39,860 nucleotides of DNA from Chitinophagales bacterium 62-2. GTDB taxonomy: Bacteria; Bacteroidota; Bacteroidia; Chitinophagales; Chitinophagaceae. The notes below the pieces were generated by a model. That model searched no databases and was not told the DNA's origin. It saw only the letters and a list, made by a program, of their open reading frames with translations. Positions 6,729 to 31,520 of the stretch are shown here, one piece after another. The stretch is from contig MWYU01000677.1 of assembly GCA_002050375.1 (NCBI GenBank), positions 1 through 39,860 on the forward strand, given 5' to 3'. Every line of letters begins with the position of its first letter. Within the stretch, counting starts at the first letter, position 1. The translations under genes were made by a program, and so were the position numbers.

Positions 6729-8147
6729 ATGAGCAGTTGTAACAAAGGATGGAACAAAAAAGTTTTTCTTTTACTAACCGGATGGTTCTTAGCATTAACT
6801 GCTTTTGCTGCCGATGTTAGAATTGGTGCAGCTTCAGTTAAAATAACACCACCGGTAGGTACACCCATGGCGGGCTATTATTACGAACGTGGTGTTGATA
6901 AAATTCATGATGATCTTTTTGCAAAGGCGCTTGTAATTGAAAAGGATGGTTCTAAAGTTGCCATTGTTACCTGTGATCTGATTGGTATCAGCGATCAAAT
7001 TGTAGCCGGGGTGAGAAATCTAATCCAGAAATCTTTAGGTATTGATGCCGACCATATCATGATCAGCGCAACCCATGCGCATACCGGCCCTGTAATTCCA
7101 GGGTTTAAAATGAGATATAACCCAACAGGTAAAAGTGCAGAAATCCTTGATAGTTATATTTCAAAGCTTCCAGGCCTTATTGCCAAAAGCATAACCGAAG
7201 CGAATAACGCTTTACAACCTGCCCAAATATCTTTTGGACTCGGACATGAAGAATCCATCAGTTTTAATCGTCGTTTTTTTATGACAGATGGAACTGTAGG
7301 CTGGAACCCCGGCAAACTAAATCCAAAGATCATTAAACCTGCAGGTCCAATTGATCCGGATGTTGCAGTGTTATATTCAGAAACACTTACCGGTAAGCCT
7401 ATTTCAACCTATGTTAATTTTGCACTTCACCTCGATAACGTTGGCGGAACTGAAATTTCTGCCGATCTTCCTTTTACACTCTCTAACATATTAGGCAAAT
7501 TCAAAGGTGAAGGTATGGTTACAACCTTTTCTCAAGGTTGTTCGGGTAATATCAATCATCTTAATGTAAAGAATAAAGATCCCCAAAAAGGTCATGGTGA
7601 AGCACAAAGAATAGGAACTGTACTTGCAGGTGAAGTTATTAAGACGTACACCAGACTATCACCTTTAAATATTAATGCTATAAGGGTGAAAAGGCAAATT
7701 GTAAAACTGCCGCTTCCTGAAGTATCTCCTGATGATGTTCCTGCAGCGCGGGAAATTACAGCCCGCTTTGGAAAACAGGATGCGGCTCCGTTCTTCGACT
7801 TTGTAAAAGCTTTTAAAACGATTGAAGTGTTTGAAAGGCAAGGCAAACCTATTGATGCAGAAATACAGGTTTTTGCTTTGAGTGATTCATTTGCGGTTGT
7901 TAGTCTGCCTGCAGAAGTTTTTACTGAATTGGGCATGTACATCAAGAGCCGTTCGCCCTATGCTAATACCATGATAGTTGAATTGGCTAATGGTTCAGTT
8001 GGCTATATTGCTGATCGTAAAGCTTACGTTGAAGGAAGTTATGAACCCTGGAGTTCAAGAGTAGCGCCAGGTTCAGGGGAAATTTTAGTTGAGAAAGCGC
8101 TTGAAATGCTTAATGCACTAAAAACAAAAGATCTTACAACAAAATAA
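6729..8147 (+). CDS. Neutral/alkaline ceramidase-family (PF04734-like) secreted protein, paralogue 1
   Basis: Signal peptide; VRIGAASVKITPPVGTPMAGY; ATHAHTGP; NFALHLDNVGG; GCSGNINHLN; ELANGSVGYIADRKAYVEGSYE. Confidence 0.85.
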   Translation: MSSCNKGWNKKVFLLLTGWFLALTAFAADVRIGAASVKITPPVGTPMAGYYYERGVDKIHDDLFAKALVIEKDGSKVAIVTCDLIGISDQIVAGVRNLIQKSLGIDADHIMISATHAHTGPVIPGFKMRYNPTGKSAEILDSYISKLPGLIAKSITEANNALQPAQISFGLGHEESISFNRRFFMTDGTVGWNPGKLNPKIIKPAGPIDPDVAVLYSETLTGKPISTYVNFALHLDNVGGTEISADLPFTLSNILGKFKGEGMVTTFSQGCSGNINHLNVKNKDPQKGHGEAQRIGTVLAGEVIKTYTRLSPLNINAIRVKRQIVKLPLPEVSPDDVPAAREITARFGKQDAAPFFDFVKAFKTIEVFERQGKPIDAEIQVFALSDSFAVVSLPAEVFTELGMYIKSRSPYANTMIVELANGSVGYIADRKAYVEGSYEPWSSRVAPGSGEILVEKALEMLNALKTKDLTTK

Positions 8148-8307: not shown

Positions 8308-9813
8308 ATGCATATGAAAAACATTGGATGGCAGAATGCTTTCAGGCTCTCCACCATTTGCTGCTATACTGTTATACTTCTAATACTCATATTAACAGCA
8401 TCAACAGGTAGTTGTCAAAACAGCATTAGAACTAATGCAATAAAAGTGGGCGTTGGAATGGTTGAAATTACCCCACCGATCGGTTATCCGCATTATAGGG
8501 GAGAGCTTGCAGGCATTATTACACACGGTACGGGTATTAAAAATCCACTCTACGCAAGGTCTTTAGTTTTTCGACAAGGCGATATGCAGGGTGCACTTCT
8601 AATATGCGACCTTAATGCTGTCCCGCGGGATTTGATCCGGCTTGTACGGGAAGGTGCTTCTAAACAGACTGGTATTCCTTACCAATACATTAGTGTCGCA
8701 GCTACCCACACCCATACAGCACCTTCTATCCGTCAACCTGTGCCTGCCTATGCTGATCGGGAGGCAACTGGCAAATTAACCACAGAAGATCAGAAAGGTT
8801 ATATCGCTCTTTTAATTCAGCGCATGACCCAAGCCATTGTTACCGCGTATAAGGATGCTAAGGAAGTAGACCTTATCTCTGGTATAAGTCAGGCAGCCGG
8901 AATATCTTTCAACCGTAGATTCCTGATGACTGATGGACGAGTTCGTTTTAATCCAGGTGTGCAGAACCCCAAAATTGTACACCCGGTTGGCCCTGTTGAT
9001 CCGGATGTTCACTTCGTTATGTTCCGCCCTGTTGCGCAGAAAGGTTACCATGCCTCCCTAACTGTTTTCGCAAATCACACTGATACTGAAGGAGGCACCG
9101 ATTTCAGCGCTGACTACCCGTTTTACCTTCATAAGTACCTCGGGGAAGCCTTTGGTAAGCAATTGGTGTCTGTTTTTGGCGCCGGGCCTTGTGGAGATAT
9201 CAATCACATAGATGTTAGTCAACCGAAAGGAACAGACCAGAAGAAGATTACGGAAAGGATTGGCAAAAAGCTTGCTGAAGCAGTTAGGGAAGCAGTTGCC
9301 AATGCACAGCAGCGAAGCCCATTGCTACATGTAGCTTCAAGAACTTTTTACCTGCCTCTTCAAGACTTTACTGCAGCCGACTTTCAATGGGCTTCTAAAG
9401 ACACCAACAAGCTATATCCGGAGCGGGAATTTTTAGATAATGTCCGCAGGAGAAAAATTCTTTCACTTGAGCAGCTTCGCAAACGTGAAGCTATTCCACC
9501 ATCTGTATCTGGAGAGCCATGGTTGCTACCCCTGGAAATCCATGTCTTTCAACTTAACGATCAAACTGCTATCGTTACATTGCCCGGAGAGGTTTTTGCC
9601 GAACTGGGCATGGATCTGAAAAAGCGCTCACCATTTGCCAATACCATAGTAATTGAATTGGCAAACGCAGACATCAGGTATGTTCCTACGCTTCGTGCTT
9701 TTGCCGAAGGGGATTATGAACCACTTCAATCCCGCATGGCACCAGGATCGGGTGAGAAATTAGTTGAAGAAGCAATCCGAATGCTTCACCAAATGAGAGA
9801 AAAGAAGGAATGA
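8308..9813 (+). CDS. Neutral/alkaline ceramidase-family (PF04734-like) secreted protein, paralogue 2
   Basis: ORF listed from TTG 8242; ATG at 8308 or 8314 is the more plausible start. KVGVGMVEITPPIGYPHYRGEL; AATHTHTAP; ANHTDTEGGTD; GPCGDINHID; ELANADIRYVPTLRAFAEGDYE. Confidence 0.82.
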   Translation: MHMKNIGWQNAFRLSTICCYTVILLILILTASTGSCQNSIRTNAIKVGVGMVEITPPIGYPHYRGELAGIITHGTGIKNPLYARSLVFRQGDMQGALLICDLNAVPRDLIRLVREGASKQTGIPYQYISVAATHTHTAPSIRQPVPAYADREATGKLTTEDQKGYIALLIQRMTQAIVTAYKDAKEVDLISGISQAAGISFNRRFLMTDGRVRFNPGVQNPKIVHPVGPVDPDVHFVMFRPVAQKGYHASLTVFANHTDTEGGTDFSADYPFYLHKYLGEAFGKQLVSVFGAGPCGDINHIDVSQPKGTDQKKITERIGKKLAEAVREAVANAQQRSPLLHVASRTFYLPLQDFTAADFQWASKDTNKLYPEREFLDNVRRRKILSLEQLRKREAIPPSVSGEPWLLPLEIHVFQLNDQTAIVTLPGEVFAELGMDLKKRSPFANTIVIELANADIRYVPTLRAFAEGDYEPLQSRMAPGSGEKLVEEAIRMLHQMREKKE

Positions 9814-9870: not shown

Positions 9871-11472
9871 ATGAAAAAAATAGAAAGAATTATCAAAAGT
9901 TTGAAAATTGAAAGGCGCCCATTCAATGAATTGCTCAACCGTGAAAATCGGAAGCCCTGGCTTATTGATCATCTATTATACTTTTTTAGGCAAGAGACTT
10001 GCTTTAGATTTATCCTCTGCTGCTTCCCCGTATTGCTTTTCAGTAGCGTGGTAACGAATGCACAAACTACATCCCAGGCAACCGGGTCAAAACCAGGCAA
10101 AATTTTTAAAGCAGGTGCATCCACGGGCAACATAACTCCACCACTTGGTCAAGGCATCGTCGGCAATTTTGGAACGCCCCCGCCGGCCATGCACATTCAC
10201 GATCAATTGCATGTGCGTTCCATTGTGTTGGATGATGGCGAGACGCGTTTGGTGTTTGTGGTCGTTGACAATGTAGGAGTCACCCAGGAAGTATTTGATG
10301 AGGCAAAGCGGTTGATAAACGCAGCTACAGGTTTACCAAAAGAAAATGTACTTACTTCATCTACACATACTCATTCAGCAACAAGCGCAGGAGGATCAGG
10401 CGATAAAAGAAGAGGTTACAATAAGGGAGGCCCTTTAGATGAATACCAATCCTTTCTTGCCCGGCGAATTTCTGATGGTGTACAGGTCGCCATTAATAAC
10501 CTTCAACCCGCACGTATTGGCTGGGGAGTTGGCAATGTTCCGCAACACCTGTTTAATCGTCGCTGGAAAATGAAACCCGGTAGCCCTGTACCAAATCCCT
10601 TTGGCGGGCAGGATAAAGTGATGATGAATCCGGGAGTAGGCAATCCAAATCTTCTTGAACCTGCCGGGCCTACTGATCCACAGGTGTCTTTTCTGTCAGT
10701 GCAATCACTCGAAGGCAAGCCAATAGCCTTGCTTGGAAATTATTCGTTGCATTATGTTGGAGGTGTTCCAAAGAATGATATTTCGGCTGATTATTTTGCT
10801 GTGTTTGCTGATCGCATCCAGGAGTTGCTGAAGGCGGATAGACAAGATCCACCCTTTGTCGCCATCATGTCTAACGGTACCTCGGGCGATGTGAATAACA
10901 TCAATTTTCGTGGTCCTGCTGAAAAACTTGCGCCTTACGAAAAAATGCGCATTGTTGCCAATGATGTGGCGCAGGAAGTTTTACGGGTTTATAAAACTAT
11001 ACAACATAAAGATTGGGTTCGTTTGCAGGCAGCACAATCTCTGCTTACCCTTCAGGTGCGAAAGCCAACACCGGAAATGATTACATATGCTAATAAGATA
11101 CTGGCAAAACCTGAAAATGACACGCCTTATCAAAAGAATGAGAGAGCTTATGCTGACCGAACATTACAATTGCATAAAGAGTGGCCGGATAAGATCGATA
11201 TAATTTTGCAAGCCTTCAACATTGGCGGCCTTGGTATAGCAGCTATTCCATTCGAAACTTTTACACAAACGGGCCTTGACATAAAAGCAAAAAGTCCGTT
11301 TAAACCCACATTCACTATTGAATTGGCAAACGGCAATTTTGGTTACCTGCCAACACCTGAACAACATTTATTAGGCGGATATGAAACCTGGCTCGGAACT
11401 AATAAAGTAGAGACTAACGCCTCGGAGAAAATTGTGAAAGAACTGCTTACGCTCTTTTCCGGATTTAAATAA
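9871..11472 (+). CDS. Neutral/alkaline ceramidase-family (PF04734-like) exported protein, paralogue 3
   Basis: Hydrophobic N-terminal segment ending VVTNAQ; FKAGASTGNITPPLGQGIVGN; SSTHTHSAT; NYSLHYVGG; SNGTSGDVNNIN; ELANGNFGYLPTPEQHLLGGYE. Confidence 0.85.
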   Translation: MKKIERIIKSLKIERRPFNELLNRENRKPWLIDHLLYFFRQETCFRFILCCFPVLLFSSVVTNAQTTSQATGSKPGKIFKAGASTGNITPPLGQGIVGNFGTPPPAMHIHDQLHVRSIVLDDGETRLVFVVVDNVGVTQEVFDEAKRLINAATGLPKENVLTSSTHTHSATSAGGSGDKRRGYNKGGPLDEYQSFLARRISDGVQVAINNLQPARIGWGVGNVPQHLFNRRWKMKPGSPVPNPFGGQDKVMMNPGVGNPNLLEPAGPTDPQVSFLSVQSLEGKPIALLGNYSLHYVGGVPKNDISADYFAVFADRIQELLKADRQDPPFVAIMSNGTSGDVNNINFRGPAEKLAPYEKMRIVANDVAQEVLRVYKTIQHKDWVRLQAAQSLLTLQVRKPTPEMITYANKILAKPENDTPYQKNERAYADRTLQLHKEWPDKIDIILQAFNIGGLGIAAIPFETFTQTGLDIKAKSPFKPTFTIELANGNFGYLPTPEQHLLGGYETWLGTNKVETNASEKIVKELLTLFSGFK

Positions 11473-11700: not shown

Positions 11701-12084
11701 ATGAACAAAAAACAAGTAAACCACCCCGATCGTGATCCTGATTTTTCAACCGGCGCATATTCTGATGGAGTTATTGTTGATGGATTTCTTTATGTAAGTG
11801 GCCAGGCAGCAGTAGATTTTAAAACGTCGAAATTTGTATTAGGTACCATTGAAGAAGAAACTCATCTCACTTTAAAAAATATTCAATCAATTATAGAAGC
11901 TGCCGGTGGAACAATGGACCAGGTAATTAAATGTACTGTTCACCTCGCTGACATTAATGACTTCGATAGATATAACGCTGTTTACGCCAAATACTTTACC
12001 GGAATAAAACCCACCCGAACAACGGTTCAATCTGTATTAGCAGAGAAGTTGAAAGTAGAAATAGACTGTATAGTAAAACTTTAA
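11701..12084 (+). CDS. RidA/YjgF/UK114-family protein (probable enamine/imine deaminase)
   Basis: ORF listed from 11674; likely start ATG 11701 (MNKKQVNHPDRD). FSTGAYSDGVIVDGFLYVSGQ; conserved Arg in KPTRTTVQSVLAEKLKVEID. Confidence 0.88.
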   Translation: MNKKQVNHPDRDPDFSTGAYSDGVIVDGFLYVSGQAAVDFKTSKFVLGTIEEETHLTLKNIQSIIEAAGGTMDQVIKCTVHLADINDFDRYNAVYAKYFTGIKPTRTTVQSVLAEKLKVEIDCIVKL

Positions 12085-12106: not shown

Positions 12107-13081
12107 ATGCAAAATACAGATAATGCAAAAGATGTAATTGTTGGAGTTGTAGGACTTGGTCTGATGGGCAGCAGTATTATAGCGTCCTTTTTAATTGCAG
12201 GGCATCAGGTGATTGCAGTAGCGCCTCTTCCGCAAGATTTGCCTGAAGCTTACCAACGAATATATAAGCAATTAGTACATGGCGATCACTCGGGCTTATT
12301 ATCCAAACCAATTGATAGTTACATAAGCCAGGTAATAATTTCTGATGACTACTCGTTGTTACAAAATTGTGGTTTGGTTATGGAGTGTGTGATAGAAAAT
12401 ATTGAGATAAAAGAAAGTGTATTTAATAAAATTGCTTGTGCTGTTAGTAAAGATGCTATTATCGCCAGTAATACTTCTGCAATTCCAATAAGCACATTAC
12501 AAAAACTGGTACCTAATCCTAAACGCTTTTTAGGCATACATTGGGCAGAGCCAGCTTACATGACACGTTTTCTTGAAGTTACCTGCGGAGAAGATACAGA
12601 TATAGCCTATGCCGAATGGGTTGTTGAACTTGCCGGTTTATGGGGTAAAGAACCCACGCTTCTAAAAAAAGACATCAGGGGCTTTATTACAAATCGTTTA
12701 ATGTATGCGGTTTACCGTGAAGGTCTTGCACTTGTTGAAAACGGTGATGTAACAATGGAAGATGCGGATAAGGCTTTCCGTTATGATGCCGGATCATGGA
12801 TGACCTTGATGGGTATTTTCAGGAGAATGGATTTCTTAGGGCTACAGGATAGCTTAGTAGCGTGGAACGCTATTTATCCAAAATTAAGTAATAGCGAAAC
12901 TGTTCCGGGTGTAATGCAGGAAATGGTTGATAAGCAGGCCCGGGGTATTCATAACCAGAAAGGACTTTACCCATACACTGCCGAAGAAGCTGAACAATGG
13001 GAAAAAGCTTATACCCAATTCAATGAAGATATTTTTAAGTTAGCCGCCCAATATCCGTCTCCTGTTACAGAGGTAAAATAA
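12107..13081 (+). CDS. 3-hydroxyacyl-CoA dehydrogenase family protein (NAD-binding, intact motifs)
   Basis: GVVGLGLMGSSI Rossmann glycine motif; SNTSAIPISTL; GIHWAEPAYMTRFLEV (catalytic His); GFITNRLMYAVYREGLALVENG (Asn). Confidence 0.88.
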   Translation: MQNTDNAKDVIVGVVGLGLMGSSIIASFLIAGHQVIAVAPLPQDLPEAYQRIYKQLVHGDHSGLLSKPIDSYISQVIISDDYSLLQNCGLVMECVIENIEIKESVFNKIACAVSKDAIIASNTSAIPISTLQKLVPNPKRFLGIHWAEPAYMTRFLEVTCGEDTDIAYAEWVVELAGLWGKEPTLLKKDIRGFITNRLMYAVYREGLALVENGDVTMEDADKAFRYDAGSWMTLMGIFRRMDFLGLQDSLVAWNAIYPKLSNSETVPGVMQEMVDKQARGIHNQKGLYPYTAEEAEQWEKAYTQFNEDIFKLAAQYPSPVTEVK

Positions 13082-13091
13082 AATGTAAAGT

Positions 13092-14399
13092 ATGTCCAGG
13101 TCTAAATCTTATGTGTACCCAATGATCATTCTTGGAATACTATTTTTTGTATTCGGGTTCATCACCTGGGTCAATGGTATTCTGATACCTTACTTTCAAA
13201 TTTGTTTGGAGTTAAGTAATACTGAAGCGTTTATGGTTGCTTCTGCTTCTTATGCTGCGTATTTTTTTATGGCAATTCCATCGGCATGGGTACTTAAATA
13301 TACCGGCTACAAAAAAGGGATGGTACTTGGTTTAGTGGTTATGGCAATAGGAACTGTCTTATTTATTCCCGCTGCTTATACAAGAACTTACCCGGTATTT
13401 CTTACAGGGCTTTTTATTACAGGAACGGGATTGGCATTGCTTCAAACAGCAGCTAATCCTTATGTAGCTATTGTTGGCCCGGTTGAAGCTACGGCTCAAC
13501 GGATTGGCTTTATGGGGTTATCAAACAAAATCGCCGGCATAGCAAGCCAGCGTATACTTGGAGCAATATTTCTGCTGAATGCCGACAGTATTATTGCAAG
13601 CATTACCAACGTTAGTGCAGCAGAAAGAGCACGTATTCTTGACGAATATGTTCTAAAAGTTATTAATCCATATCTCGTAATAACAGGAATACTTTTATTA
13701 CTTGCAGTGATGATCTTCTTTTCGAAGATGCCCGAAATAAATGAAAGCGAACGTGCTTTAGATGATGGTACTGTTGTAAAAAAATCACCTAAATCGAGTG
13801 TACTTCAATATCCATATTTAGTGCTCGGTGTAATAGCACTATTTGTTTCGGCAGCTTGTGAAGTAATACCAATTGATGGGATCATTGTTTATAGTCGCTC
13901 GTTAGGAATACCATTGTCGCAAGCCAGGCACTTTTCAGAATATACGCTTTACGCTATGTTGTTTGGCTACTTAGCCAGTATTATACTTATACCAAAATAC
14001 CTGTCTCAACAAAGTGCATTAATGGTTTGTGCTGTAATAGGTATAGGGCTTACTATAGGCGCTTACTTAAGCAATGGCATGTTTTCCATTTATTGTTTAA
14101 TTCTTATGGGTTTTGGTGCAGCATGGCTTTGGGGCACTATTTGGGGATTAGCAATACGCGATTTAGGTAAGCATACTAAAATGGGCGCGGCACTGCTGCT
14201 AATGTCGGTTGTTGGCGGTGGTATATTTCCGGTAATTTTTGGAAGGTTGATTGATTTAAACCCGGCCTATTCTCAAACCGCTGTACTCATGTTAATACCA
14301 TGTTTCTTATACTTGTTCTTTTATGGTATGTGGGGCCATAAAATAAACAGTTGGAAGTTAGCACCTGCCGCCGAACCAGCGGTTGGAATTATTAAATAA
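13092..14399 (+). CDS. FucP-type sugar/MFS transporter
   Basis: Multiple hydrophobic helices; FGFITWVNGILIPYFQICLELSNTEAFMVASASYAAYFFMAIPSAW; GTGLALLQTAANPYVA. Confidence 0.88.
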   Translation: MSRSKSYVYPMIILGILFFVFGFITWVNGILIPYFQICLELSNTEAFMVASASYAAYFFMAIPSAWVLKYTGYKKGMVLGLVVMAIGTVLFIPAAYTRTYPVFLTGLFITGTGLALLQTAANPYVAIVGPVEATAQRIGFMGLSNKIAGIASQRILGAIFLLNADSIIASITNVSAAERARILDEYVLKVINPYLVITGILLLLAVMIFFSKMPEINESERALDDGTVVKKSPKSSVLQYPYLVLGVIALFVSAACEVIPIDGIIVYSRSLGIPLSQARHFSEYTLYAMLFGYLASIILIPKYLSQQSALMVCAVIGIGLTIGAYLSNGMFSIYCLILMGFGAAWLWGTIWGLAIRDLGKHTKMGAALLLMSVVGGGIFPVIFGRLIDLNPAYSQTAVLMLIPCFLYLFFYGMWGHKINSWKLAPAAEPAVGIIK

Positions 14400-14412: not shown

Positions 14413-15717
14413 ATGGAAGGTATTACTTATACAAAATCAGCAGACTTACTTGAGAGATCAAAGAAAGTATTGGCAGGCGGTGTTTCATCAGAGTTTAGAA
14501 AATATAATCATCCTCATGCTATATTTTATACGCACGGTAAAGGCAGCAGGATATATGATGTGGATGGCAATGAATACCTTGATTTTACTTTAAGTCAGGG
14601 ACCCTTAATTCTGGGTCATTCTCATCCTTCTGTTTTAAAAGCTATTAATGAATATTCTGAACACGGTCAGCTTTTTGCAGGTCAGCATATTAAGGAAGTT
14701 GAGTTGGCAGAAAGGTTAAATAAGCATATTCCTTCTGCTGAAGTGATGAGATTTTGTTTAGATGGATCAGAGGCAGTACATACTGCATTCAGAGTGGCAA
14801 GAGCAAAAACAGGCAAGAAGAAATTCCTTCGTTTTGAAGGGCATTATCATGGATGGTTAGACAATGTAAGCTGGGGTTATTCAGGCCCTTCTGCCGAAGC
14901 TTTAGGTTCAGAAGAAAACCCGAATGTTTTTCCGTGGAGTGAAGGATTACCGGAAACTGCAAAAGAAGAGTTTATTGTAATTCCATGGAACGATCTTGAT
15001 TTGGTGAGGAAAACAGTTGCCCAAAAACATGAAGAAATTGCAGCTATTATTACAGAACCTATCATGTGTAATAACAGTTGCATTCAACCTAAAGAAGGTT
15101 ATTTGCAAGGACTAAGAGACATCTGCAATGAATATGAAATAGCTTTAATTTTCGATGAAGTTATTACCGGTTTTAGAGTAGGGCTTGGTGGTGCACAAAC
15201 ATTATATGGTATTGTTCCTGATCTTGCAATTTTCGCTAAAGCATTGGCAAGCGGTTACCCTATAAGCGCCATTGTAGGTAAGAAAGAATGGATGAACATG
15301 ATTATTGAGGCAAAGGTTATTCATGCCGGTACAATGAATGCCGGTAATGCTCCTGTAGCAGCAGCTTTAGCAACTCTTGATGTATTAGAAACAGAACAAC
15401 CCCACGATCGTATGTATAATCTTGGTAAAAAATTGATGGCCGGTTTACAACAAGCTGCAAGGGAAACCAATCAAAACTTATTGGTACAAGGTTTAGGCCC
15501 CATGTTCCATACTGGATTTACTGAACTTAAAAGTGTAAATAATTACCGGGACGCATTTAGTTATGATAAGACCAAATTAGGCAAACTGATTTCCGGTTTA
15601 CATAACAGAGGCATCAGAGTTATTGGACGTGGTTTATGGTACATAAGCGCTGCACATACAGAAGCAGATATTGATCATGCAATTGAAACTTCCAAAGAAG
15701 TATTATCAGGTATTTAA
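14413..15717 (+). CDS. Class III PLP aminotransferase, glutamate-1-semialdehyde aminomutase-like
   Basis: ORF listed from 14383; ATG 14413 (MEGITYTKS) sits 13 bp after the upstream stop. DVDGNEYLDFTLSQGPLILGHSHP; LIFDEVITGFR; FAKALASGYPISAIVG (PLP lysine context). Confidence 0.88.
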   Translation: MEGITYTKSADLLERSKKVLAGGVSSEFRKYNHPHAIFYTHGKGSRIYDVDGNEYLDFTLSQGPLILGHSHPSVLKAINEYSEHGQLFAGQHIKEVELAERLNKHIPSAEVMRFCLDGSEAVHTAFRVARAKTGKKKFLRFEGHYHGWLDNVSWGYSGPSAEALGSEENPNVFPWSEGLPETAKEEFIVIPWNDLDLVRKTVAQKHEEIAAIITEPIMCNNSCIQPKEGYLQGLRDICNEYEIALIFDEVITGFRVGLGGAQTLYGIVPDLAIFAKALASGYPISAIVGKKEWMNMIIEAKVIHAGTMNAGNAPVAAALATLDVLETEQPHDRMYNLGKKLMAGLQQAARETNQNLLVQGLGPMFHTGFTELKSVNNYRDAFSYDKTKLGKLISGLHNRGIRVIGRGLWYISAAHTEADIDHAIETSKEVLSGI

Positions 15718-15742: not shown

Positions 15743-16762
15743 ATGAAAAAGGTAGTGATAGGCAGGAACTCAATTTTAGTGAAAGGAGAGGATAAGTTGG
15801 CATTCAGTGTTACTGCTTGTTTATTGAAGGGGGGTTATAATGTAACGCTATATACAACCGATGTACAAAAAGCATTTGATTGTCTTAATATTCATAAACA
15901 TGACATTGAAAGTGTTTCTTCCTGTACGCTAAACTTAGACAACCTGAATATTGCAGATCGGTTTACTGCTTCTGATTATCATCTGGCTATTGCCGTAACA
16001 TCCGAAAATATTGTAGAAAAGCAATCAGTAATAAAAGAACTGGAACAGAAGCTAAGCAACAAAGTACTCATCGCAATTAATACAGAAAGTATTGCTTTAA
16101 GTGATCTACATACTGATGCTCAAAATCCGGAGAGAATAATTGGAGCTAATTGGGTAGAACCGGCCCATACTACCCTGTTTCTTGAAATTCTTTACAACGG
16201 CCCAGGTAATAAAAAGTATGCAGAGAAATTCTGTGATACTGCAAAATTGACTCTAAATAAAGACCCATATGCAGTTGAAAATTTTAGCATTCGCGCAAGG
16301 TTAATGACCGCTCTTATAAGAGAAGCAGGATACCTGATTCAAAACGGTTATGCTACTGTAGAAGACATTGACAGAGCTTGCCGCAACGACCCCGGTTATT
16401 ACATGTCTTTTGCTGGTAATTTCAGGTACATGGATCTGATGGGAACCAATTCTTATGGAATGGTGATGAAAGACCTAAACCGTGAATTGGGTAAAGATTC
16501 AGATATACCTGAATGTTTTAAAGAAATAATTAAAAAAGGTGGTTTAGGTATGCAGAATAACCATGGTTTCTATAATTATAATGATGGCGACACGGAGAAA
16601 TGGGATGCAGTTTTTAGAAAATTCAGTTACGAGATTCAAAACATAATAAACAAGTATCCCTTTAATTATAATGACAAGGTTGCAGAAATGACAGGAACTC
16701 CTGTAAATAAAAAAGAAGATCACCTTGCTTCGGAAATGCTGATTGAGGAGCTAAATGCTTAA
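15743..16762 (+). CDS. Degenerate 3-hydroxyacyl-CoA dehydrogenase-like protein (probable pseudoenzyme paralogue of 12107..13081)
   Basis: ORF listed from 15671; ATG 15743 (MKKVVIGRNS) lies after the upstream stop. Collinear with the 12107 product (NPERIIGANWVEPAHTTLFLEI, ALIREAGYLIQNGYATVEDIDRACRNDPG) but lacks glycine motif and key catalytic residues. Confidence 0.8.
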   Translation: MKKVVIGRNSILVKGEDKLAFSVTACLLKGGYNVTLYTTDVQKAFDCLNIHKHDIESVSSCTLNLDNLNIADRFTASDYHLAIAVTSENIVEKQSVIKELEQKLSNKVLIAINTESIALSDLHTDAQNPERIIGANWVEPAHTTLFLEILYNGPGNKKYAEKFCDTAKLTLNKDPYAVENFSIRARLMTALIREAGYLIQNGYATVEDIDRACRNDPGYYMSFAGNFRYMDLMGTNSYGMVMKDLNRELGKDSDIPECFKEIIKKGGLGMQNNHGFYNYNDGDTEKWDAVFRKFSYEIQNIINKYPFNYNDKVAEMTGTPVNKKEDHLASEMLIEELNA

Positions 16763-16765
16763 GAG

Positions 16766-17848
16766 ATGGCGAAACCTTTTATAATAGATGCTCACCTCGA
16801 TTTGGCTATGAATGCCATTGAATGGAACAGGGATCTTTCGCGCCCCCTGGATGAAATAAGGCAGCGTGAAATGAATATGAAAGATAAACCTGATCGTGGC
16901 AAAGGAACGGTTTGTCTACCTGAATTGCGTAAAGCCCGGATTGGTTTGGTTGTCGCAACACAATTAGCCAGATATACACCACCCGGCAGCTTACTTCCCG
17001 GATGGAACTCACCACAACAGGCGTGGGCAATGACACAGGCACAGTTAGCATGGTATCGTGAGATGGAAGCGCTGGGAGAAATGGTTCAAATAAGAAATAA
17101 GCAGGAACTTGATACACACTTAGCATTATGGGATAACCAGGAAGTTGCCGATGAAAAAAAGCCGGTTGGTTACATCCTAAGTTTAGAAGGAGCGGATTCT
17201 CTTGTTAATATATCCTATCTGCACCGGGCTTATGAATATGGATTACGAGCTATTGGCTTATCACATTTCGGACCCGGAAGATATGCGCCGGGAACGAAAA
17301 TGGAAGGACCAATTACTCCTTTAGGCCTGGAATTACTTAAGGAAATCAGTAAGTTAAATTTGATACTTGATGTAACTCATTTAACAGATGAAGGCTTTTA
17401 CCAGGCAATGAGTATTTATGAAGGACCAGTTTGGGCAAGCCATCATAACGTTAGAAAGATTGTACCTAATCAACGGCAACTGAATGATGACCAGATTAAG
17501 CAGTTGATCAACAGGGGAGCGGTAATAGGCGCCATGCTTGATTGCTGGGCAATGGATATACGTTTTATAGATAAAATCTCTGACCCCTGGCAACTCAATA
17601 TCCGTTTAGAAAATATTGTTGACCATTGGGATCATATCTGCCAGATAGCTGGTAACGCTAACCATGTCGCAATTGGCAGTGACTTAGATGGTATTTTCGG
17701 AACAGAGCAATCACCCTGGGATTTGAACTCTATTGCTGATCTTCAAAAATACCAGGACATATTAAGCAACCGCGGTTACAAACAAGAGGATATTGATAAA
17801 ATTTTTCATGGCAACTGGCTTAGGTTTATAAATGAAGCATGGAGTTAA
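16766..17848 (+). CDS. Peptidase family M19 (renal dipeptidase-like), no signal peptide
   Basis: DAHLDLAMN, SLEGADSL, DVTHLTDEGFYQAM, ASHHNVRKI, IGSDLDGIFG: all expected metal-ligand motifs present. Confidence 0.9.
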   Translation: MAKPFIIDAHLDLAMNAIEWNRDLSRPLDEIRQREMNMKDKPDRGKGTVCLPELRKARIGLVVATQLARYTPPGSLLPGWNSPQQAWAMTQAQLAWYREMEALGEMVQIRNKQELDTHLALWDNQEVADEKKPVGYILSLEGADSLVNISYLHRAYEYGLRAIGLSHFGPGRYAPGTKMEGPITPLGLELLKEISKLNLILDVTHLTDEGFYQAMSIYEGPVWASHHNVRKIVPNQRQLNDDQIKQLINRGAVIGAMLDCWAMDIRFIDKISDPWQLNIRLENIVDHWDHICQIAGNANHVAIGSDLDGIFGTEQSPWDLNSIADLQKYQDILSNRGYKQEDIDKIFHGNWLRFINEAWS

Positions 17849-17895: not shown

Positions 17896-19263
17896 ATGAG
17901 CATAGAACCATTAAAAGCCGGTGCAGCAAAAGTTGACATAACTCCGCCTTTAGGTACTTTGATCAATGGAGATTTTGTTTCTCACTATGCCAGAAATATT
18001 CATGATACCTTGTTTGCAAAAGCATTAGTGCTGCAAAAAAAAGATGTTTCGCTTGCTATTGTAGTTGTTGATATCTGTTTGATGGATAAAGATTTTCTGG
18101 ATGGAGTTAAGATAGAAATAAACACTAAAACAGGAATAGCGAGTTCAAACATTCTTATTTCAGGTACGCATACACATGCCGCTGGTTCTATAACGAGTGT
18201 TCTTTTAGGTGCAGCCGACTTACCTTACCGGCAATCACTTTTTGGCCGGATTGTACAAGCTGTAGAAGATGCCCAGGCCAACATTAAACCAGCTAAAGCA
18301 GGTTTTGGTTCAGCAGATGCGCCTGAACATGTTTTGTGCAGGCGTTATTTTATGAAAGATGGTTTTGAAAAACCAAACCCCATAACAAAACAACAGGATG
18401 AGGTTAAAACAAATCCCTTTGGCGGAGAACATTTGATTGACAGACCTGCCGCTGACGTGGATACACAGGTAAGTTATTTGGCCGTTAAGGATTTGGAGGA
18501 TAATTGGATGAGCCTTTTGGCTAACTATTCCTTACACTATGTAGGCGATTGGGAAAATGGAACGATCAGCGCTGATTACTTTGGTGTTTTCTCATCCGAA
18601 CTTCAAAAGAAAATAGGAGCAGGTGAAAATTTTATAGGGATGATGAGTAACGGAACCAGCGGTGATGCTAATATCTGGGATTTTCAGAATCCTGATCGTT
18701 ATCCCAAAGGCTTCTTCGAAAAAAGTAAATTGATTGGAACTGATATTGCCGAAAAAGTAGCTAACTCAATTCAAAATATAAACTGGCAGACTGAACCGGA
18801 TTTAGCAGTTGAATATGTTGAGTTTACAATTGGCACACGCAAACCATCTTCAGAAGAATTGGAAGCTGCGAAAGAGATGGTTATGCAAACTGATTATTCC
18901 ACTTTTAAGATTACAGATGATAGGGCTTTAGATAAGTTATATGCACGTGAGCAAATACTTTTAAATGAATATCCCGACAAAGTGAAACTTCCGTTGCAGG
19001 TAATAAAAATTGGCAATGGAATGATAGGGGGAATGGGAGCAGAGTTCTTTGCTGAAACCGGGTTAAGACTAAAAGAGAAAAGTCCGGCTCAAAATTGTTT
19101 TACCATCACAATGGCAAACGGATTTCTTGGCTATGTACCGCCGGCCCATGAAATTGAAAGAGGCGGTTATGAGAGTTGGCGCAGCAGAAACAGCTTTCTT
19201 GAAAACAATGCTGAAGAAGCTATAAGGGATAAAATGCTAAGCTTAATGAATGATTTGAATTAA
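17896..19263 (+). CDS. Neutral/alkaline ceramidase-family (PF04734-like) protein, paralogue 4, no signal peptide (predicted cytoplasmic)
   Basis: MSIEPLKAGAAKVDITPPLGTLINGDF begins directly with the domain; SGTHTHAAG; NYSLHYVGDW; SNGTSGDANIWDF; FLGYVPPAHEIERGGYESW. Confidence 0.84.
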   Translation: MSIEPLKAGAAKVDITPPLGTLINGDFVSHYARNIHDTLFAKALVLQKKDVSLAIVVVDICLMDKDFLDGVKIEINTKTGIASSNILISGTHTHAAGSITSVLLGAADLPYRQSLFGRIVQAVEDAQANIKPAKAGFGSADAPEHVLCRRYFMKDGFEKPNPITKQQDEVKTNPFGGEHLIDRPAADVDTQVSYLAVKDLEDNWMSLLANYSLHYVGDWENGTISADYFGVFSSELQKKIGAGENFIGMMSNGTSGDANIWDFQNPDRYPKGFFEKSKLIGTDIAEKVANSIQNINWQTEPDLAVEYVEFTIGTRKPSSEELEAAKEMVMQTDYSTFKITDDRALDKLYAREQILLNEYPDKVKLPLQVIKIGNGMIGGMGAEFFAETGLRLKEKSPAQNCFTITMANGFLGYVPPAHEIERGGYESWRSRNSFLENNAEEAIRDKMLSLMNDLN

Positions 19264-19274
19264 ATAATAAGGTT

Positions 19275-20708
19275 ATGATTAAAGGTTTTATAGGCTTAAT
19301 TCTTTTTGTAAACAGCATAAGTGTATTAGCACAAAATGCAGTTAATAATAAATCTAAAAAGCCAAATATCTTAATGATATGTGTGGATGATTTAAACGAT
19401 TATATCGGTGCTATGGGTCACCCTGATGCTATTACTCCTAACATGGATAAACTTATTAAAAGAGGTACTTTATTTACCAATGCTCAAACCCAATCTCCTC
19501 TGTGCGGACCTTCAAGGGCCGCACTGATGACCGGTTTAAGACCATCTACTACAGGCATTTATGGGTTAATACCAGATAATGATGTTAAAGGTTCTAATGA
19601 TGCTACACGCAATAATATTTTTATGCATCAGTATTTTAAAAACAATGGTTATTATACCATGGGCAGGGGTAAGATATTTCATATAAATGTACCTGATGGA
19701 TTAATGGATGAACAGGAAAGAGATAAAGAAATAGTTGGTCCCTTTCCGCCTAAAAAAATGAATTATTTTTTAGGCCGTACAGATAGTGACTGGGGAGCTT
19801 TTCCTGAAAAAGATGAGCAAATGCCAGATTATAAAACTGCTAAATGGGCGGTTGAGCGATTGGGTAGAAAGTACGATCAACCATTTTTCTTAACAGTAGG
19901 TTTTTTTAGGCCGCATGTTCCCTGGCATGTGCCGCAGAAATGGTTCGATATGTATGATCCGGCAAAATTACACCTCCCACCATATTTAAAAACGGATTTT
20001 GATGATTTGCCTGAAATGGCGTTAAAAGTAGAATCGACTTTTATGCCGAGCACAGAATGGGCTTTAGAAAACAACCAATGGCGTAAAATGCTTCAGGGTT
20101 ATTTAGCTTGTATATCCTTTGTTGATCATTATATAGGACAGGTCTTAAATGCATTAGACGATAGCCCTTATGCAAAAAATACAATCGTTGTGTTATGGTC
20201 CGATCATGGCTTTAGAATGGGTGAAAAGAACAGGTTTGCTAAACAGTGTTTGTGGGATAGAGCAACCAAAACACCGCTTGTTTATGCAGGTCCGGGTATA
20301 GCTGTAAATAAAAAGATTAGTGCTCCTGTTGAATTATTTTCAGTGTATCCTACATTAACAGATCTGGCAGGTTTACAATCGAATAAAAACCTTGAAGCTA
20401 AAAGCATCGCCCCTTTACTTAAAAACCCGGAATTAAAGTGGACACATCCAACCATAACAACTTGGGGCCGCAATAATCATGGAATTAGAATTCAGGATTA
20501 CCATTACATTCAGTATGAAGATCGGTCAGAAGAATTTTATAACCTGAAGGAAGATCCGAATGAATGGTACAACAAAGCAACCGATCAGAAGTATGCAAAG
20601 ATTAAGGAAGGTTTGAAAAAATATATTCCTGCTGTAAATGCAAAGTGGGCTCCGGGTACTAAATATGATGGAGTTGAATATTTTAAACAACAGAAGCTTG
20701 AGGATTGA
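19275..20708 (+). CDS. Sulfatase (S1 type, iduronate-2-sulfatase-like)
   Basis: Signal peptide; KPNILMICVDDLNDYIGAMG; formylglycine motif CGPSRAALMTG; SDHGFRMGEKN. Confidence 0.92.
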   Translation: MIKGFIGLILFVNSISVLAQNAVNNKSKKPNILMICVDDLNDYIGAMGHPDAITPNMDKLIKRGTLFTNAQTQSPLCGPSRAALMTGLRPSTTGIYGLIPDNDVKGSNDATRNNIFMHQYFKNNGYYTMGRGKIFHINVPDGLMDEQERDKEIVGPFPPKKMNYFLGRTDSDWGAFPEKDEQMPDYKTAKWAVERLGRKYDQPFFLTVGFFRPHVPWHVPQKWFDMYDPAKLHLPPYLKTDFDDLPEMALKVESTFMPSTEWALENNQWRKMLQGYLACISFVDHYIGQVLNALDDSPYAKNTIVVLWSDHGFRMGEKNRFAKQCLWDRATKTPLVYAGPGIAVNKKISAPVELFSVYPTLTDLAGLQSNKNLEAKSIAPLLKNPELKWTHPTITTWGRNNHGIRIQDYHYIQYEDRSEEFYNLKEDPNEWYNKATDQKYAKIKEGLKKYIPAVNAKWAPGTKYDGVEYFKQQKLED

Positions 20709-28499: not shown

Positions 28500-30128
28500 A
28501 TGTATATAGCTTCTGATGTACTTCAAAAAGTTAGGATACGCGGAGTTGTATTTTTGACTTTGCTTATAACCTTCACGCTGCTTAGCTATAAAGGGTCTAT
28601 CAAAAAAACTAATTTAACACAGCGGGATAAAAGACCTAATATTCTTTTTGTAATATCTGATGATCAATCTTATCCTCATGCTTCAGCTTATGGATATAAA
28701 GCTATAAACACTCCAGCGTTTGATAGAATTGCAAGAGAAGGAGCGTTGTTTACAAACGCTATTGTTGCTTCTCCGGGTTGCAGTCCATCCCGTGCATCTA
28801 TACTTACCGGTAGAAATTGCTGGCAACTTGAAGAAGCAGGCACGCATGCCAGCAGCTTCCCGCAAAAATATATCACCTATCCGGACCTGTTAGAAAGAGC
28901 AGGGTATCTAATTGGTTTTACCGGCAAGCCGTGGGCACCTGGAGATTGGAGTAAATCCGGAAGAAAAAGAAACCCGGCGGGAACAGAGTATAATAAAATT
29001 AAATTGACTAATAATCCTTCCGGAATTTCTAGTATTGATTATGCGGCAAACTTTTCTGATTTTTTGTTTAAGAGAGAAATGAATCAGCCATTTTGTTTTT
29101 GGTTTGGCGCCACTGAACCTCACAGAGTCTTTTCGCAGGGAATAGGTTTGAAAAATGGAAAGAAATCAGAAGATGTTGAAGTTCCTGCATTTCTACCGGA
29201 TAATTCTGAAGTAAGAAATGATATTTTAGACTATTGCTTTGAAATAGAATGGTATGATAAGCAATTAAGCAAAATCATCTCCCTGTTGGAAAAGTCGGGT
29301 GAGTTAGATAATACTATCATCGTAGTTACTTCAGACAATGGCATGGCATTTCCCCGGGCAAAAGCAAATACTTATGAGTTTGGAATTCATGTTCCTTTAG
29401 CTATCAGATGGGGTATGAATATTAGAGCTGGTACTAAAATAAACAATGTAGTTAGCCTTATAGATCTGGCTCCAACTTTTCTTGAGGCTGCCGGCGTTAA
29501 ACATCCCGGAACTAAAACCGGCGATAATACTATGGAAGGTATCAGCATGTTAACTATCCTCACTAATAAAAAACGCACTGTTAAAGATACCTTACGCACG
29601 GGAGTATATTCTTCAAGAGAGCGCCATTCCTTTGCCCGGTGGAATAACCTAAGTTATCCGCAAAGAGCTTTACGGACAAATGATTATTTATATATCAGAA
29701 ACTTTAAACCTCATTTATGGCCTGCCGGCGATCCGCAAAAGATGGAGAAAGACTCAATCTCAAGTCAAATGAAATTAGGTCCGCCGCATAGTGGCTATCA
29801 TGATATTGATGCCAGTCCAACTTTAGATTTTTTGGTCAGGAACAGAGATGAAAAAGAGGTCTCTGAATATTTTCACTACGCAATAGATGTACGCCCTGCG
29901 GAAGAATTATATGATATTAAAATAGATCCGGCTTGTTTAAATAACCTGGCTAAAGATCGGGCATTTCTAAAAACCAGGAACTTATTGAAAAACCGGATGG
30001 ATAGTTATCTAAGAAAAACTAATGATCCAAGGGTTACAGGTAACGGAGATATTTTTGAAACATATCGCAGGTATGAAGGCGTGTCAAGAGATTTCCCGCC
30101 TCACCTGAAATCTATGCAGCAGAACTAA
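28500..30128 (+). CDS. Sulfatase (S1 type, heparan N-sulfatase-like)
   Basis: RPNILFVISDDQSYPHASAYGYKAINTPAFDRIAREGALFTNAI; formylglycine motif CSPSRASILTG. Confidence 0.9.
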   Translation: MYIASDVLQKVRIRGVVFLTLLITFTLLSYKGSIKKTNLTQRDKRPNILFVISDDQSYPHASAYGYKAINTPAFDRIAREGALFTNAIVASPGCSPSRASILTGRNCWQLEEAGTHASSFPQKYITYPDLLERAGYLIGFTGKPWAPGDWSKSGRKRNPAGTEYNKIKLTNNPSGISSIDYAANFSDFLFKREMNQPFCFWFGATEPHRVFSQGIGLKNGKKSEDVEVPAFLPDNSEVRNDILDYCFEIEWYDKQLSKIISLLEKSGELDNTIIVVTSDNGMAFPRAKANTYEFGIHVPLAIRWGMNIRAGTKINNVVSLIDLAPTFLEAAGVKHPGTKTGDNTMEGISMLTILTNKKRTVKDTLRTGVYSSRERHSFARWNNLSYPQRALRTNDYLYIRNFKPHLWPAGDPQKMEKDSISSQMKLGPPHSGYHDIDASPTLDFLVRNRDEKEVSEYFHYAIDVRPAEELYDIKIDPACLNNLAKDRAFLKTRNLLKNRMDSYLRKTNDPRVTGNGDIFETYRRYEGVSRDFPPHLKSMQQN

Positions 30129-30152: not shown

Positions 30153-31520
30153 ATGCGCCTTCTATATTTACTTTTATCATTAATAATGGTGCTGTCTTTT
30201 TCTAGTAAGATTAAGGCACAAAATCAAAAACCAAATATCATAATCATTCTTGCTGATGATTTAGGCTATGGCGATTTAAGCTGTTACGGGCATCCAACCA
30301 TTCGTACCCCGTACTTAGATCAAATGGCAAAAGAAGGAATGCGCTTTACCCAATTTTATGTTGCTGCAAATGTATGTTCTCCAAGCAGGGCCGCATTATT
30401 AACAGGGAGATTGCCACTTAGAAATGGTATGGCGGGTGAACAAAGAGTTGTTCTTTTCCCAAATTCTTCAGGAGGATTACCGGCAAGTGAAATTACCATT
30501 GCAGAAGCGCTTAAAAGTGCAGGTTACTCTACGGGGATAATTGGAAAATGGCATTTAGGACATCTGCCACAATACTTGCCGGCGAAACAGGGCTTTGACT
30601 ATTTCTATGGTATCCCGTATTCTAATGATATGAATTCTATCAGGAATAAATCTAATCCTCCTTTGCCATTATATAAAGACTCAAAAGTTATTGAAGAAAA
30701 TCCTGATCAAAGTCTATCAACCAAAAATTATACTGAAGAAGCTATTAATTTTATTAAGAGAAATAAAACAAAGCCGTTTTTCTTATACTACGCTAATCAT
30801 TTTCCGCATGAGCCTCTTTCTGTTTCTAATGATTTTAAAGGTAAAAGTAAGAGAGGCTTATATGGCGACGTTGTAGCAGAATTAGACTGGAGTGTTGGAC
30901 AGGTTTTAAAAACTTTAAGAGAGCAAAAATTAGATAAGAACACGCTTGTAATTTTTACCAGTGACAATGGTCCCACACTGCAACATCGCGAAGCAGGGGG
31001 TTCTGCAGGATTGTTATACGAAGGAAAGAAAACTACTTACGAAGGTGGAATGCGGGTTCCTGCTATAGCATGGTGGCCGGGAAAAATACTTACAAATCAA
31101 ATTTCTGAAACTGTTGTTACTTCTATGGATATAATGCCTACCGTAATAAATTTGGCGAACATTAATTTTGCAAAAGACAGGCAATTAGATGGAGCAGACA
31201 TATTACCGGTATTAACAGGTGAACCTGGTAAGGCAGATAAGATAGTTTATTACTATAATAAAACAACACTTCAGGCAATTAGAAAGGGATCGTGGAAGGC
31301 GCATTTTTATATCCTGCCATCATCAGCACCAGCTAAAGAGTTTGGAAAGTTATTAGATCAGCCTCTGCTTTATAACCTGGATACAGATCCATCTGAAAGA
31401 TTAGATGTAAGCAAAGCCCATCCTGAAATTATAGAAGACATACGCAAAGAATACGACAGGCATGTAAAGTCATTCACTCCAATGCCGTTGCAATTTGATG
31501 CGATAATTGAAAATAAATAA
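30153..31520 (+). CDS. Sulfatase (S1 type, arylsulfatase A/GalNAc-6-sulfatase-like)
   Basis: Signal peptide; KPNIIIILADDLGYGDLSCYGHPTIRTPYLDQMAKEGMRFTQFY; CSPSRAALLTGRLPLRNGM; GKWHLGHLPQYLP. Confidence 0.93.
   Translation: MRLLYLLLSLIMVLSFSSKIKAQNQKPNIIIILADDLGYGDLSCYGHPTIRTPYLDQMAKEGMRFTQFYVAANVCSPSRAALLTGRLPLRNGMAGEQRVVLFPNSSGGLPASEITIAEALKSAGYSTGIIGKWHLGHLPQYLPAKQGFDYFYGIPYSNDMNSIRNKSNPPLPLYKDSKVIEENPDQSLSTKNYTEEAINFIKRNKTKPFFLYYANHFPHEPLSVSNDFKGKSKRGLYGDVVAELDWSVGQVLKTLREQKLDKNTLVIFTSDNGPTLQHREAGGSAGLLYEGKKTTYEGGMRVPAIAWWPGKILTNQISETVVTSMDIMPTVINLANINFAKDRQLDGADILPVLTGEPGKADKIVYYYNKTTLQAIRKGSWKAHFYILPSSAPAKEFGKLLDQPLLYNLDTDPSERLDVSKAHPEIIEDIRKEYDRHVKSFTPMPLQFDAIIENK

Follow-up and report, generated by a model that had tools for sequence, protein, structure and literature searches.

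The window, the whole 39,860-nt stretch of Chitinophagales bacterium 62-2 DNA analyzed here, encodes two members of the 3-hydroxyacyl-CoA dehydrogenase (HADH) superfamily close together on one strand, one of them intact (the partner) and the other, psHADH, apparently stripped of its catalytic residues. The question raised by the locus is what the second gene is for. The genes concerned are as follows.

11701..12084, + strand: RidA family enamine/imine deaminase (PF01042, TIGR00004 above cut-off), conserved upstream of HADH
12107..13081, + strand: intact HADH, the partner (324 aa; S124, H145, E157, N196 and GLGLMG present; PF02737 E 2e-39)
13092..14399, + strand: MFS sugar permease, NagP/GluP/FucP-like (TIGR01272 above cut-off)
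14413..15717, + strand: class III aminotransferase, GSA aminomutase/GntE-like (PF00202; best NCBIfam models below cut-off), adjoining psHADH in most loci
15743..16762, + strand: psHADH, predicted pseudoenzyme with the 3-hydroxyacyl-CoA dehydrogenase fold (339 aa; PF02737 E 2e-11, PF00725 E 5.5e-14; AlphaFold2 model)
16766..17848, + strand: M19 membrane-dipeptidase family protein (PF01244), starting 3 bp past the psHADH stop; orthologues adjoin psHADH in most loci
17896..19263, + strand: ceramidase-like protein (Ceramidase_alk N-terminal; PF04734), conserved downstream

The psHADH frame is unbroken from the ATG at 15743 to the stop codon ending at 16762 and encodes 339 residues, in agreement with the preliminary description of this DNA, which had reported an intact frame over 340 codons and a second HADH paralogue. 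The product is a true paralogue of the 12107-13081 protein (BLASTP, 30% identity over 320 columns, E 1e-40) and contains the 3HCDH_N and 3HCDH domains in order (PF02737, 44.6 bits against a cut-off of 22; PF00725, 52.9 bits against 22.1); both domains and a fold search place it in the 3-hydroxyacyl-CoA dehydrogenase superfamily. AlphaFold2 with 15 sequences left the C-domain unresolved, and 111 aligned sequences were used instead, giving a two-domain model (pLDDT 89.7) whose best PDB fold is 4om8 (TM 0.80/0.87, rmsd 2.5). This predicted model, the alignment for which includes active relatives, shows a compatible fold and not an NAD-binding pocket.

Active NAD-dependent HADHs have a GxGxxG loop, a catalytic His and Glu pair, and a Ser and an Asn that bind cofactor and substrate. 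Alignment of psHADH with its relatives locates the following changes.

15785..15802, + strand: degenerate dinucleotide-binding loop GEDKLA in psHADH (partner, GLGLMG)
16085..16087, + strand: codon GAA, psHADH Glu115 in place of the catalytic/cofactor-contacting Ser (partner Ser124)
16148..16150, + strand: codon AAT, psHADH Asn136 in place of the catalytic His (partner His145)
16295..16297, + strand: codon GCA, psHADH Ala185 in place of the substrate-binding Asn (partner Asn196), with a two-residue deletion of Gly-Phe just before it

GxGxxG is absent from psHADH, the His of the catalytic pair has become Asn while the Glu remains, and the Ser and Asn are both gone. The preliminary description was correct in noting the exchange of the catalytic His for Asn and the loss of the conserved Asn. 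It also rightly recognized that GxGxxG is lost, but had the register of this stretch wrong, in that GLGLMG aligns with GEDKLA, so that the first Gly (G15) is kept and the second and third are gone. The Ser124 to Glu115 exchange and the Gly-Phe deletion are further losses which it had overlooked.

The roles of HADH residues were assigned from the structure paper on the 3-hydroxybutyryl-CoA dehydrogenase A2HBD, where catalysis and substrate contact fall to Ser117, His136, Glu148 and Asn186 (PMC11476959), and counts were taken over 64 distinct psHADHs from Bacteroidota, 61 partners and 38 single-copy HADHs. Asn occupies the catalytic His site in 64/64 psHADHs, compared with His in 61/61 partners and 38/38 single-copy HADHs; at the catalytic Ser site, Glu is found in 59/64 psHADHs and Ser in 0/64, whereas all 61 partners and all 38 single-copy HADHs have Ser. 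None of the 64 psHADHs has the substrate Asn, and the Gly-Phe preceding it is deleted in every one. Their glycine loops have invariably lost the last Gly, the middle Gly (GxG) is retained in 35/64, and the full GxGxxG motif occurs in 0/64. Partners hold every catalytic residue wherever the sequence covers that part. Orthologues retaining the glycine motif and the His, which according to the preliminary description would point to decay in this strain, were looked for in this set and none was found. The substitutions are kept throughout the clade; fixed as they are in the whole set of 64 orthologues, or nearly so, the losses represent more than chance.

Loss of psHADH from the genome as a decaying duplicate has a negligible probability. 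It is true that psHADH evolves faster than the neighboring genes, with a dN/dS that exceeds those of the partner and the aminotransferase in most close pairs, yet the values (0.08-0.22 in 14 close pairs, the fifteenth being saturated) are far under 1, the frame is open, and identical losses recur in 64 distinct copies across Bacteroidota families. Decay in this strain in particular is ruled out by the losses common to the 64 orthologues and the low dN/dS. Fixation of the losses in the clade, together with clear purifying selection, upholds the earlier suggestion of selection for a non-dehydrogenase role, and the view of psHADH as a conserved pseudoenzyme rather than a normal dehydrogenase is well supported by the sequences. 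Residues of the cofactor pocket (partner E97, K102 and N122, equivalent to A2HBD Glu90, Lys95 and Asn115) are nevertheless kept in about 91-94% of psHADHs, which may therefore still bind nucleotide weakly. These residues and the GxG of 35/64 copies could be taken to indicate a divergent enzyme that retains some dehydrogenase activity with an unusual catalytic set (Asn for His), although this is most improbable given that the Ser, His, Asn and last loop Gly are absent from every copy and that the loop in the window is GEDKLA.

If psHADH serves the partner, the two would be expected to occur together. Among 299 genomes of the host family (Chitinophagaceae), in which psHADH and partner were searched for separately, psHADH clade members were found in 15, including the window's genome, and intact-partner clade members in the same 15 (in G127 the partner gene is cut by a contig end); 284 have neither. 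In the partner search, members of the partner clade showed 55-62% identity, compared with 47-53% for single-copy HADHs. Whether the orthologues always co-occur, a point raised in the preliminary description, is thereby answered for this family, the dead and active paralogues being always together. The two genes are about 14-23 kb apart in 5/15 of the genomes, still within one cluster, so their co-occurrence is more than adjacency. Genome G000 also has an extra single-copy intact HADH outside the cluster (G000:C32:8231-9151; L054), about 51% identical to the partner.

Searching a public genome collection for psHADH with a single sequence gave no matches; an alignment scan of the same collection did recover loci, in Larkinella, Dyadobacter, Spirosoma, Runella, Rhabdobacter, Cyclobacterium, Lunatimonas, Pedobacter, Mucilaginibacter, Chitinophaga and Saprospiraceae. 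The two loci that have no partner gene, L102 and L122, are short metagenome contigs that start inside the aminotransferase gene. The usual gene order, RidA - HADH - (MFS) - aminotransferase - psHADH - M19 dipeptidase - ceramidase-like, is conserved in other Bacteroidota families and orders. Many Bacteroidota hold an HADH pair in one operon, of which one member is intact and the other, to judge from its residues, catalytically dead but selected. A tree of 111 sequences placed the psHADHs in one clade (SH-aLRT 100) and the partners in another (SH-aLRT 100), with the single-copy HADHs outside both; this was a quick tree, the deeper branching order of which is not relied upon. Being fixed in many lineages and maintained by selection, psHADH is in these respects what would be expected of the dead member of a pseudoenzyme/active-paralogue heteromer.

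The partner has not remained as it was. Alignment columns that are conserved among single-copy HADHs were grouped by the copy in which they are lost: 32 are lost in psHADH alone, 21 of them in the N-domain and 11 in the C-domain (including the Gly-Phe-x-Thr-Asn stretch), whereas the 9 lost in the partner alone, which single-copy HADHs and psHADH keep, are all in the C-domain (9/9) and none in the NAD domain (Fisher p 5e-4 for the split between domains, only indicative as columns are not independent). Branch lengths refitted on one fixed topology gave the partner stem 0.034 changes/site in the N-domain vs 0.61 in the C-domain (bootstrap 5-95%, 0.00-0.12 and 0.42-1.18, respectively), and the psHADH stem 1.07 vs 0.54 (0.67-1.62 and 0.43-1.01). 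The cofactor domain of the partner has thus hardly moved, whereas its C-domain and that of psHADH have been rebuilt to a similar extent. Within psHADH, conservation is far less in the N-domain (0.47 overall) than in the C-domain (0.73). That the partner gene too has changed since duplication, as read from these alignments, is a new finding here. The segments most directly concerned are:

16349..16441, + strand: psHADH C-domain segment with Y203 and the long helix 206-233 (GYATVEDIDRACRNDPGYY...), helix taken from the model
12746..12796, + strand: remodelled C-domain segment of the partner, residues 214-230, with partner-specific K222, F224, Y226 and S230

The first retains the ancestral Y203, R211, C213, N215 and Y219, which are absent from the partner; in the second, K222 (60/61), F224 (61/61), Y226 (61/61) and S230 (60/61) stand where psHADH and single-copy HADHs have R, C, N and Y. 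Domain reshuffling was rejected as the origin of the psHADH C-domain on the strength of the whole-length tree, on which psHADHs form one clade, and of the shared states, which are ancestral. Two loci (L064 and L067) have a related operon, comprising ceramidase-like, aminotransferase, MFS, HADH and M19 genes, with a single HADH that has both sets of features, combining the catalytic residues with the ancestral C-domain residues; this variant is likely to represent the arrangement before duplication.

Complementary change of this kind is predicted by a shift of the dimer from self-pairing to cross-pairing, but not if psHADH were simply a regulatory or decaying duplicate. It fits the conversion of an ancestral homodimer into an obligate heterodimer in which a single NAD site still works, and indirectly supports a role for psHADH as a heterodimer partner. 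The best explanation of the locus is, we believe, that psHADH and the HADH encoded at 12107-13081 probably form an obligate heterodimer, of which psHADH is the non-catalytic subunit.

HADHs dimerize through the C-domain, mainly by helices 9 and 10, with His220 (A2HBD numbering) at the dimer center (PMC11476959). The His220 column contains Ser230 in the partner, Tyr219 in psHADH and Tyr in single-copy HADHs; helix 10 of the partner has Phe224, Tyr226 and Ser230 against Cys, Asn and Tyr in psHADH and single-copy HADHs, and on helix 9 the Tyr200 and Tyr203 of the others mostly correspond to smaller residues in psHADH. We infer that these large-for-small exchanges on helices 9/10 follow the pattern expected of an asymmetric interface. 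Of 20 clade-specific C-domain columns, seven fall on mapped interface positions of the homologue (p 0.008), only with the hydrophobic list of PMC11476959 shifted by one; the shift was made because that paper names both Ile187 and Arg187, which are mutually incompatible, and Asn186-Arg187 fits the HADH motif. With the residue numbers uncorrected the enrichment is gone (p 0.51), and HBD-type folds, the type of the interface-mapped homologue, superpose poorly as a whole on the psHADH model (rmsd near 8 vs 2.5 for 4om8). The overlap with interface positions ranks as secondary evidence for the heterodimer.

Evolutionary distances bear on which operon protein psHADH works with. Across 42 loci, psHADH and partner distances correlate with r 0.81, and with a partial r of 0.47 after removal of the share of the aminotransferase and M19 (permutation p 0.0005), whereas the corresponding values with the other two proteins removed are 0.29 for psHADH-aminotransferase and about zero for psHADH-M19. 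A metabolite sensor that uses the altered pocket to bind substrate or product and acts, without a stoichiometric partner dimer, on another operon protein, possibly the aminotransferase, would accord with the conserved pocket residues of psHADH, the usual adjacency of the two genes and their fusion in one species, but its distances track the partner more closely than the aminotransferase, 5/15 family genomes do not have the aminotransferase beside psHADH, and the fusion is one case; we regard such a sensor as quite improbable. In that fusion (Cyclobacterium qasimii, L125:8690-10921), aminotransferase and psHADH form one 743-residue open frame, which could be natural or could reflect a lost stop or an assembly error.

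Against the heterodimer, the cofactor-pocket residues kept by psHADH and its near-invariant new residues might point to an altered catalytic activity in psHADH itself. The new residues are E115 (92%), N136 (100%), D174 (100%), R184 (91%), Y220 (100%) and P222 (97%, with Ser at 222 in the window's own psHADH). These fixed residues lie in the pocket region and the C-domain, and the Glu that pairs with the catalytic His (psHADH E148, partner E157) is retained in 64/64 psHADHs under strong purifying selection. psHADH might then have neofunctionalized to act alone at another pathway step, with Glu115 as a new acid/base in a non-redox reaction such as that of an isomerase, hydratase or decarboxylase. 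This is unlikely, in that it leaves unexplained both the rebuilt C-domain of the partner beside its static NAD domain and the lower conservation of the psHADH N-domain than of its C-domain.

Under the heterodimer explanation, the ancestral single HADH would have been a homodimer joined via its C-terminal domains, duplicated either before the diversification of much of Bacteroidota or with the pair spreading later among them. As the sequences show, one copy has rebuilt its C-terminal domain and left its NAD-binding/catalytic domain nearly as it was; the second has lost the catalytic residues and cofactor loop and retained the ancestral C-terminal helix residues. Both copies are under purifying selection and occur together. 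Cross-pairing of their C-domains may have replaced self-pairing, with psHADH presenting a dimer-facing, perhaps substrate-facing, C-domain surface to the single working NAD site of the partner, and the rebuilt psHADH pocket (Glu115, Asn136, Glu148, Arg184 and others, nearly invariant) may be a structural or regulatory ligand site. More tentatively, the active site may itself be split, the partner supplying the NAD domain and catalytic residues and psHADH supplying Arg211, Asn215, Tyr219 and others in trans, so that neither homodimer works; if true, this would be complementary degeneration at the domain level inside an enzyme.

The operon lies in a cluster that also contains SusC/SusD, a GH20 family protein, three sulfatases and four ceramidase-like proteins. 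The sulfatase-family genes are at 19275-20708, 28500-30128 and 30153-31520; the Ceramidase_alk-type proteins (6729-8147, 8308-9813, 9871-11472 and 17896-19263) match no more than the N-terminal half of the ceramidase model, the 8308 protein scoring under the Pfam cut-off. To judge from the adjacent sugar permease, aminotransferase, RidA and dipeptidase, the pathway may break down an amino-sugar or N-acyl compound, and the putative enzyme pair probably oxidizes a hydroxy acid derived from the amino compound or sugar that these four proteins handle. For annotation the locus carries a warning, as psHADH and partner match the same dehydrogenase models, yet just one can be a normal dehydrogenase.

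L-gulonate 3-dehydrogenase is an active dehydrogenase of the HADH superfamily that acts on sugar acids and not CoA esters, and it is not known to be a member of a paralogous pair. Together with lambda-crystallin (3ado, 3f3s), it belongs to the same fold group as psHADH but is distant in sequence. The nearest solved structure by sequence to both psHADH and the partner, and by fold to psHADH, is 4om8, the FHMPC 5-dehydrogenase of Mesorhizobium loti (NF042925, HADH superfamily). Scores of 87.8 bits (psHADH) and 177.5 bits (partner) against a cut-off of 500 set the pair apart from the NF042925 family, and unlike FHMPC dehydrogenase psHADH is without catalytic residues; no pyridoxine pathway context was seen. 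3-Hydroxybutyryl-CoA dehydrogenase (A2HBD; also 4kug and 6aa8) is likewise a two-domain HADH, in which A2HBD Ser117/His136/Glu148 and Asn186 correspond to S124/H145/E157 and N196 of the partner, but it differs from the psHADH/partner pair in having identical subunits with a full catalytic site in each (PMC11476959).

A search of the open-access literature found no description of pseudoenzymes in the HADH superfamily, of such a pairing, or of a RidA-HADH-psHADH operon, and it yielded no structural papers on 4om8 or on carnitine or gulonate dehydrogenase. Most known examples of a dead paralogue serving an active one come from eukaryotes, and psHADH and its partner provide a bacterial candidate, in a dehydrogenase family that is well understood. 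In the trypanosomatid deoxyhypusine synthase DHSc/DHSp, a dead paralogue combines with an impaired active paralogue in a complex that raises activity 3000-fold (PMC3663545); the fold is unrelated, the organism is a eukaryotic parasite, and the complex is experimental there and predicted here. The bacterial pair, for its part, offers dozens of sequence pairs, single-copy relatives showing the likely pre-duplication state and a prediction at the level of residues, and constitutes a direct test of the transition from homodimer to obligate heterodimer.
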